Source: Candidatus Krumholzibacteriota bacterium (lineage in GTDB: Bacteria; Krumholzibacteriota; Krumholzibacteriia; Krumholzibacteriales; WJIX01). Taken from it: a stretch of DNA of 64,000 nt. A model generated the notes under the pieces. It had not been told where the DNA came from. It searched no databases and worked only from the letters and a program-made list of their open reading frames with translations. The position numbers and the translations under genes are program-made. The stretch is taken from positions 1,168,560 through 1,232,559 of the forward strand of contig JAXHNR010000001.1 in the NCBI GenBank assembly GCA_034520215.1, written 5' to 3'. This document shows, in pieces, positions 27,693 to 28,790 of the stretch. Position 1 is the first letter of the stretch. Every line of letters starts with the position of its first letter.

Positions 27693-28583
27693 CTACTCGA
27701 AAAGTCCTGTACTAAGGTACTTATCCCCCCTGTCGGGTATAATAACCGCAATTTTCCCAACCCCTGTTATATCCGCCACTTTCTCAGCCGCGCAAACCGC
27801 AGCCCCCGAACTCATTCCCGCAAAAATACCGTCTTCCCTTGCCAGTCTTCTAGCGGTAAGAAAGGCATCTCTTCTGGACACGTATATCCGGTCATCCACT
27901 ATATCGGGTCGGAAAACCTCTCCGCTGAAATCCTCCTCAGGATTCTGCAGACCCTGTATCCGATAACCGCCGGGGGGTATAACGGCGAATACTCTGGTTT
28001 CCGGCGAATACTCTCTGAACCTCCTTGCAATTCCCATTAAAGTTCCCCCGGTTCCGACTCCGGCAACGACGGCACCTATATCTTTCAAATCCCTCAAAAG
28101 TTCTGCAGCTGTACCGCGGTAGTGTGCTTCTGTATTGTCTGTGTTGTTGAACTGATCGGACAGCCAATACCTCCCCGGGTCCCCTTCGACCAGTTCCCTG
28201 GCCCTCTCCAGTGCGCCCATAGTGCCTGAGTCACCCCCGGTCAACTCCAGCCGGGCTCCGTAAGATTTTACCAGAAAACCTCTTTCACTGCTCATCCGTT
28301 CAGACATGACTATATGTACAGGATATCCCCTTCGAGCTCCCACCATGGCCAGAGATATCCCCATATTGCCGCTGGTCGCCTCGAGAATAGTCATGCCAGG
28401 TTTCAGGTCACCTCTCCGCTCAGCCATTTCTATCATATTAAGAGCCACCCGGTCTTTGATCGAACCTGTTGGATTCTCACCCTCCAGCTTGGCGTAAATC
28501 TCCGCTCCCTGCCCGTTCTCGAAACCCCTTAATCTCACCGTTGGTGTATTTCCGATCTTCAATAGAATATTTTCGTATATCAT
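27693..28583 (-). CDS. cysK: Cysteine synthase (O-acetylserine sulfhydrylase)
   Basis: PLP enzyme that makes cysteine from O-acetylserine and sulfide. Visible are the PLP-lysine region ENPTGSIKDRVALNMIEMAE, the substrate loop EATSGNMGISLAM, the phosphate-binding loop GVGTGGTLMGIARRF and the C-terminal IFAGMSSGAAVCAA. At 296 residues it is close to CysM length. The ATG at 28583 has GGGAGG 7 bases upstream; the frame extends to a TTG at 28601 inside the leader. The leader holds a Cys-rich peptide and a terminator, so control by cysteine supply is likely. Confidence 0.95.
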   Translation of the reverse strand: MIYENILLKIGNTPTVRLRGFENGQGAEIYAKLEGENPTGSIKDRVALNMIEMAERRGDLKPGMTILEATSGNMGISLAMVGARRGYPVHIVMSERMSSERGFLVKSYGARLELTGGDSGTMGALERARELVEGDPGRYWLSDQFNNTDNTEAHYRGTAAELLRDLKDIGAVVAGVGTGGTLMGIARRFREYSPETRVFAVIPPGGYRIQGLQNPEEDFSGEVFRPDIVDDRIYVSRRDAFLTARRLAREDGIFAGMSSGAAVCAAEKVADITGVGKIAVIIPDRGDKYLSTGLFE

Positions 28584-28601: not shown

Positions 28602-28636
28602 TAAAAAAAGCTCCCGGAAAATTCCGGGAGCTTTTC
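28602..28636 (-). terminator. Intrinsic terminator of the cysK attenuator
   Basis: On the minus strand AAAAGCTCCCGGAA (28635-28622) pairs with TTCCGGGAGCTTTT (28619-28606) and runs into seven T. It ends about 20 bases before the cysK ATG, so it must be read through for cysK expression. TCCCGGA in its 5' arm (28629-28623) is also complementary to TCCGGGA in the leader-peptide region (28682-28676), giving a competing antiterminator. Confidence 0.85.
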
Positions 28637-28663
28637 GTCAATACCTTTATTTTAAAAAAGTCA

Positions 28664-28732
28664 TCAATAGACGTATCCCGGATATTTATCGGGATTACAA
28701 CAACAGTTTACATATATGATGACTTTTTTCAT
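28664..28732 (-). CDS. Leader peptide with three consecutive Cys codons (cysK attenuator)
   Basis: A 22-codon open frame, MKKVIIYVNCCCN... ending VY and TGA. The ATG has AGGAGA about 6 bases upstream. Residues 10-12 are TGT TGT TGT. The peptide lies between a strong promoter and a terminator directly before cysK. The RNA can fold ATCCCG (28695-28690) with CGGGAT (28680-28675), just downstream of the Cys codons. A ribosome waiting on them would mask the first arm and free TCCGGGA to pair with the terminator arm, allowing cysK expression. A 13-bp outer stem joins codons 2-6 to 28666-28654. This is inferred from the layout, not shown. Confidence 0.85.
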   Translation of the reverse strand: MKKVIIYVNCCCNPDKYPGYVY

Positions 28733-28761
28733 ATCTTTCTCCTACTTTATTAACAGCATTT

Positions 28762-28790
28762 ATTATACCATAAAAATGCAAATATTTCAA
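28762..28790 (-). promoter_or_regulatory. Sigma-70 promoter of the cysK leader
   Basis: TTGAAA (28790-28785) and a perfect TATAAT (28767-28762) are separated by 17 bases. Transcription should start near 28755, about 22 bases before the leader-peptide ATG. Confidence 0.8.

Follow-up and report, generated by a model that had tools for sequence, protein, structure and literature searches.

The minus strand of the window, i.e. the whole 64,000-nucleotide stretch of Candidatus Krumholzibacteriota DNA analysed here, carries a cysteine synthase gene with its ATG at 28583 and GGGAGG upstream. The enzyme is a PALP protein by Pfam, and the nearest solved structures are cysteine synthases. An earlier note on this DNA had called the gene cysK; the assignment to the CysK/CysM family of cysteine synthases stands, while the enzyme scores just below the cysKM subfamily cut-off. 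In the window genome, no cysE was found above the curated cut-off, so that the acceptor substrate may be either O-acetylserine or O-phosphoserine. A leader peptide, MKKVIIYVNCCCNPDKYPGYVY, is encoded 149 nt upstream of the cysteine synthase gene, flanked by a good promoter on one side and an intrinsic terminator on the other. The features of the locus are as follows.

27693 to 28583, minus strand: cysteine synthase of the CysK/CysM family (PALP), the proposed regulated gene (Pfam and nearest solved structures)
28762 to 28790, minus strand: sigma-70-like promoter, TTGAAA-17-TATAAT, with TG ahead of the -10 element (11 of 12 consensus matches)
28739 to 28743, minus strand: Shine-Dalgarno sequence AGGAG for the leader ORF (from the sequence)
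28717 to 28729, minus strand: 5' arm of the long-range stem, AAAAAAGTCATCA, which encloses the leader ORF; partner 28666-28654 (fold)
28664 to 28732, minus strand: leader peptide ORF of 22 amino acids, MKKVIIYVNCCCNPDKYPGYVY followed by a stop codon (sequence; orthologue MRDVTEHVNCCCNPDKYPGCVYR in G004)
28697 to 28705, minus strand: putative sensor, three Cys codons TGTTGTTGT, TGT TGT TGT (a Cys run is the feature common to leader peptides otherwise unrelated in sequence)
28690 to 28696, minus strand: segment 1, AATCCCG, protector arm and proposed footprint of the Cys-stalled ribosome (alternative-pairing tests and folding)
28676 to 28682, minus strand: segment 2, TCCGGGA, with segment 1 or segment 3 as partner (pairing and spacing tests)
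28654 to 28666, minus strand: 3' arm of the long-range stem, TGATGACTTTTTT (fold)
28623 to 28636, minus strand: segment 3, the terminator 5' arm and antiterminator partner, with TCCCGGA at 28629-28623 (terminator and pairing tests)
28603 to 28618, minus strand: segment 4, the 3' arm of the intrinsic terminator and U tract, AGCTCCCGGAATTTTCCGGGAGCT, the same in G004 (sequence comparison)

The promoter, the ribosome site, the 22-codon peptide with its three adjacent TGT codons, the hairpin right after these codons, the 13-bp long-range stem and the intrinsic terminator ahead of cysK had all been described in the earlier note, and all were recovered. The hairpin has the arms AATCCCG (28696-28690) and TCCGGGA (28682-28676); the 13-bp stem (28729-28717 with 28666-28654) joins the start and stop regions of the leader ORF; and the terminator has 14 bp (28636-28605) followed by T7. 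Transcription is expected to start near 28755. The fold of 28755-28585 has a z-score of -5.4 against 200 dinucleotide shuffles, none of which folded equally well (0/200). At the Cys frequency of the window, a CCC run in a 22-residue peptide has p ~1e-5. A scan of the whole window against Rfam gave no family match, T-box included.

Conservation of the leader extends to a second genus of the window's family. G004 (contig WJIX01000272.1) has an orthologous cysK (76% identity), preceded by a leader ORF encoding MRDVTEHVNCCCNPDKYPGCVYR and a stop codon and by the same terminator as in the window. The reading frame of the window leader ORF, which has a Shine-Dalgarno sequence, is conserved, and the 36 nt that encode VNCCCNPDKYPG (12 core codons) as well as the 24-nt terminator core are identical letter by letter. 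By comparison, the two cysK genes have identical codons at 42% of shared amino acids and 35% identity at fourfold sites, i.e. synonymous sites are nearly saturated. Because synonymous identity in cysK is only 0.42, the chance of 12 identical leader codons is ~3e-5. The outer stem is retained in G004 despite letter changes (GTCA-CGA-ACACG with CGTGT-TCG-TGAC). Across the order of the window, the leader DNA patterns matched only in the window genome and G004, the cysK cassette being rare in that order; three other same-genus genomes, 80-84% complete, lack this cysK.

Cys-run leaders before cysteine genes in other genomes

The earlier note had proposed a search of relatives for Cys-run peptides ahead of cysK with covarying stems, and such leaders were found, in G004 and in Patescibacteria. 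The contig search returned only two loci; the sole other close match in a named genome, with 54% identity, is Ca. Peregrinibacteria GW2011_GWF2_38_29 (L037), and its cysK also has a Cys-run leader, MKPLNTYNQANNCCCNLGMIPRLYCLCSCR followed by a stop codon. No loci were found in the viral contigs searched. A breadth search of 380 Patescibacteria genomes and 353 genomes of the class of L037 yielded 29 cysteine synthase loci, 11 of which have a Cys-run leader and terminator before cysK (L042, L043, L044, L046, L047, L055, L057, L058, L063, L065 and L067). At L061, also from Patescibacteria, the leader precedes a ParB-like gene that heads the cysK operon, and at L060 the leader is doubtful. About half of the Patescibacteria cysK genes lack a leader. 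The peptide letters flanking the Cys run in Patescibacteria are unrelated to those in the window, while the logic is alike; outside this shared logic, the cysK leaders are strongly divergent. Thus, the element is not restricted to the one lineage that the earlier note had in view, and is widespread in Patescibacteria too.

Among 80 sampled genomes of the phylum of the window, nine genomes from two other families have an ordinary cysE gene with a Cys-run leader and terminator; six represent further genera of the same order, and three are genera from another family of the same class. The encoded peptides are MKRRAGHTRVNCCCPLT, MRRRIGHNSCCCSPLT, MKRQKGHLDGCCTPLK, MKRRNGHRSCCCTMPK, MKGKVGHNNCCTTLK and MKGRNGHISRCCSPLT, together with three unlike these. 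Six of the cysE leaders can be aligned and have a common outer stem, inner hairpins and terminator. In L115-L120, from the order of the window, the pattern MK.R.GH...CC.PL is conserved, the outer stem pairs the ORF start with a segment past the stop codon, and the inner hairpins are accompanied by a long terminator; an antiterminator is not obvious.

Over the long ORFs of the collected loci, short ORFs with a CCC run lie upstream of 10/46 cysK-like genes versus 5/268 others (p 3e-6). Every one of these five is cysE or a ParB-like gene, at the head of a cysteine operon. In other words, the targets of the Cys leaders are all cysteine genes: cysK, cysE and the ParB-like-cysK operon. None of the collected loci has an Rfam match.

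Several Patescibacteria leaders show features of their own. L046 (G339) has two complete Cys attenuators in tandem, 300 nt before cysK, each with a Cys-run ORF and a terminator. In L042, L044 and other leaders, TATAAT lies only ~10-15 nt ahead of the leader ATG, and leaderless translation is therefore possible there, as in mycobacteria. In L067 (G769), a long hairpin and its T run come immediately after a CCCC leader; here no antiterminator may be needed, as a stalled ribosome could itself block the terminator. ParB-like genes lie upstream of cysK at L061, L062 and L048, the one at L061 having a ParB N-terminal match just under the cut-off. Possibly, these genes encode a serine kinase of an O-phosphoserine route to cysteine.

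Antiterminator pairing and the proposed mechanism

For 13 cysK leaders, the hairpin that precedes the T run was taken as the terminator, with arms set by hand, and the sequence from the Cys run to the terminator was scored for pairing with the terminator 5' arm against dinucleotide shuffles. This 2:3 pairing exceeded that of the shuffles in 13/13 leaders (p 0.001-0.04; Fisher 1e-16, or 3e-15 without the near-copy G004). L061 gave p=0.0005, bringing the set to 14 cysK-type leaders, each with p<=0.04. The paired segments covary: TCCGGGA:TCCCGGA in the window, TTCCGAGA:TCTCGGAA in L042, AAGGGTTAG:CTAACCCTT in L046, AGAGGTCGT:ACGACCTCT in L057, and others. The alternative pairing of TCCGGGA (28682-28676) with TCCCGGA (28629-28623) that the earlier note had pointed out thus beats shuffled sequences and covaries in relatives. 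Among the cysE leaders of the class of the window, the same test was significant in 1/7 and not in 6/7, and the segment-2 model fails for two Patescibacteria leaders, G769 and G775.

The position of segment 2 is constant. From the first base of the Cys run to where segment 2 begins to pair, the distance is on average 22.1 nt (SD 2.7; n=14 leaders), with 20-23 nt in 11/14 leaders and 23 nt in the window; in the null model the SD is 14.9, and 0/2000 shuffles were as tight. A distance of 20-23 nt is the point at which RNA exits a ribosome stalled at the Cys codons, with segment 1 covered.

Folding gave the two expected states. With a ribosome at the Cys codons and segment 3 just made, 2:3 forms in 13/13 leaders; the exception in detail is G158, where a ribosome at the first Cys codon leaves only 3 pairs of 2:3, and one at the second gives 12, the full helix. 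A ribosome placed at the stop codon gives 3:4 in 13/13. All 13 scored leaders have an intrinsic terminator, that of G657 being weak. In the full transcript of the window leader, by contrast, the static MFE favours the terminator 3:4 even with a ribosome stalled at Cys, and the "on" state must therefore be kinetic. The folding proposed in the earlier note was thus borne out for the stalled ribosome with segment 3 just made, but the full-transcript MFE stays with the terminator. The E. coli trp leader, a proven attenuator used as a positive control, behaved in the same way, including the terminator preference of the full transcript, and by the same calculation its antiterminator begins 20 nt after the first Trp base.

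Based on these data, we suggest that the window element is, very probably, a ribosome-mediated transcription attenuator with charged tRNA-Cys as its signal and the cysteine synthase gene as its target. As in an attenuator of this kind, tandem Cys codons precede a cysteine synthase gene, an intrinsic terminator lies between leader ORF and gene, and the antiterminator, which is exclusive with the terminator, uses a segment just past the Cys-stalled ribosome. In this model, when Cys-tRNA is plentiful, the leader ribosome would reach the stop codon (28666) and cover segment 2; the terminator 3:4 would form and cysK would not be read. When Cys-tRNA is scarce, the ribosome would stall on TGTTGTTGT and cover segment 1, and the freed segment 2 (TCCGGGA) would pair with segment 3 (TCCCGGA) as the latter emerges. 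Because of this 2:3 pairing, no terminator would form and cysK would be transcribed. Without translation, 1:2, the long outer stem and the terminator would form, i.e. the off state. Sequence and calculation show the parts, that they are conserved, and that the antiterminator complementarity keeps a fixed distance from the Cys codons in unrelated leaders; translation of the leader, stalling of the ribosome, the change in read-through and the response to cysteine are inferred. The trp/his-like logic put forward in the earlier note is supported computationally by the covariation, the constant spacing in unrelated leaders and the E. coli trp control.

Three other explanations have to be weighed. 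The leader could be an arrest or sensor peptide, in which the nascent Cys-rich chain (or its oxidation or its binding of metal or sulfide), and not uncharged tRNA-Cys, stalls the ribosome. Cys runs are metal-binding and redox-sensitive, and VNCCCNPDKYPG is strictly kept between two genera. However, the letters conserved between the window and G004 double as RNA-pairing letters, the leader peptides share almost nothing but Cys, unlike arrest peptides, and the targets are cysteine biosynthesis genes; we consider this explanation improbable. Still less probable is Cys attenuation of the mycobacterial type, at the level of translation or through Rho; the hairpin would then be a 3' end or processing site. 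Actinobacterial polycysteine leader ORFs do function without intrinsic terminators (PMC1262725; Canestrari 2020 via PMC13236596). Yet, a strong intrinsic terminator with T7 stands ahead of cysK in the window, its 5' arm is the antiterminator partner, and the cysK ribosome site lies 3' of the terminator and is unpaired in the fold. Small ORFs and terminators are common, and terminator-like sites in the region are not more numerous than in shuffles, so that a chance ORF next to the ordinary terminator of an upstream transcript, with no regulation, also has to be considered. Of the three, this is the least probable, being very unlikely given the conservation, the covariation, the fixed geometry and the restriction to cysteine operons.

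Known cysteine regulation and the origin of the cassette

Leader-peptide attenuators are classical and have been described in Proteobacteria, Actinobacteria and some Firmicutes. The window leader, read as a tRNA-Cys-sensing attenuator, shares with the E. coli trp, his and thr attenuators a run of the regulated amino acid in a leader ORF, a protector hairpin, an antiterminator and an intrinsic terminator, and the 20 nt from the first regulatory codon to the antiterminator in trp compare with 20-23 nt in most Cys leaders. Differently from these systems, the codon is Cys and the target cysteine synthase, an extra 13-bp stem surrounds the leader ORF, and the stop codon lies 3' of segment 2. Firmicutes T-boxes on cysteine genes likewise have tRNA-Cys charging as input and termination as output; however, a T-box reads the tRNA directly and has no leader ORF, and the window has no match to the T-box covariance model.

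Actinobacteria, too, have Cys-run leader ORFs before cysteine operons, but these have no conserved terminator hairpins (PMC1262725). According to PMC9094748 and PMC13236596, both citing Canestrari 2020, the mycobacterial leaders respond to cysteine. They are leaderless ORFs for which a translational or Rho mechanism has been proposed (PMC1262725; Canestrari et al. 2020); by contrast, the window leader has a terminator and a Shine-Dalgarno sequence.

A terminator-type Cys attenuator, uORFC-8-2, has already been predicted before cysS in Rhodobacterales (PMC8632094). Like the window leader, it is predicted to combine a Cys-codon leader with an intrinsic terminator and to allow read-through at low Cys-tRNA (PMC8632094). 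The suggestion in the earlier note that a terminator-based version in an FCB-like lineage appeared new therefore needs correction; the leaders reported here are a new family of a kind already known. However, uORFC-8-2 has two tandem Cys codons, targets cysteinyl-tRNA synthetase and is found in alphaproteobacteria only (PMC8632094), while the leaders collected here precede cysK or cysE, mostly have at least three Cys codons, occur in other phyla and match nothing in Rfam; by any test applied, they show no homology to uORFC-8-2. Thus, the family, its targets (cysK and cysE) and the lineages are new. In the open-access literature, where absence is no proof, we found no paper on attenuators in Patescibacteria and none that describes a Cys leader of the terminator type upstream of cysK or cysE.

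A tree of 55 cysteine synthases places the window and G004 sequences inside Patescibacteria, in a clade of 10 rows with support of 100/99 (inner forks 95/86 and 97/85), and apart from the other cysK sequences of their phylum. Most of this Patescibacteria-type clade has leaders. Because the window cysK is nested there, gene and attenuator were probably transferred together, i.e. the leader and cysK were exchanged with Patescibacteria as a cassette, probably into the family of the window. Sampling covered only two phyla and the bootstrap had yet to settle completely, so that donor and direction are provisional. If sensing needs nothing but the ribosome and tRNA of the host, a moved cassette would bring its own regulation. 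On the wider reading, attenuation by Cys-run leaders is a general control of cysteine synthesis in the phylum of the window and in cysteine-making Patescibacteria, and a self-regulated attenuator-cysteine synthase cassette has moved between phyla; for this reading as a whole, we regard the case as evenly balanced.

The leaders provide a set of predicted cysteine attenuators in Patescibacteria, whose small genomes are usually not manipulable, and in a second phylum. As sensing would require nothing beyond ribosome, tRNA and RNA polymerase, laboratory strains allow them to be tested directly. The constant spacing of 20-23 nt, which E. coli trp has too, offers a clean marker with which to look for more such leaders, and the cassette, its transfer being probable, would be an example of a regulated gene that crossed phyla with its regulation intact.

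The pattern search also matched a site in the window genome (G000:C1:308244) that we rejected as a Cys leader: the peptide there has an Ile/Val run, is read in another frame and precedes ilvE. There, at L038:1490-1620, a TTG-start ORF encodes VKTEIVVVTASYYFYN followed by a stop codon, an Ile/Val-run peptide resembling the leader of an ilv-type attenuator.
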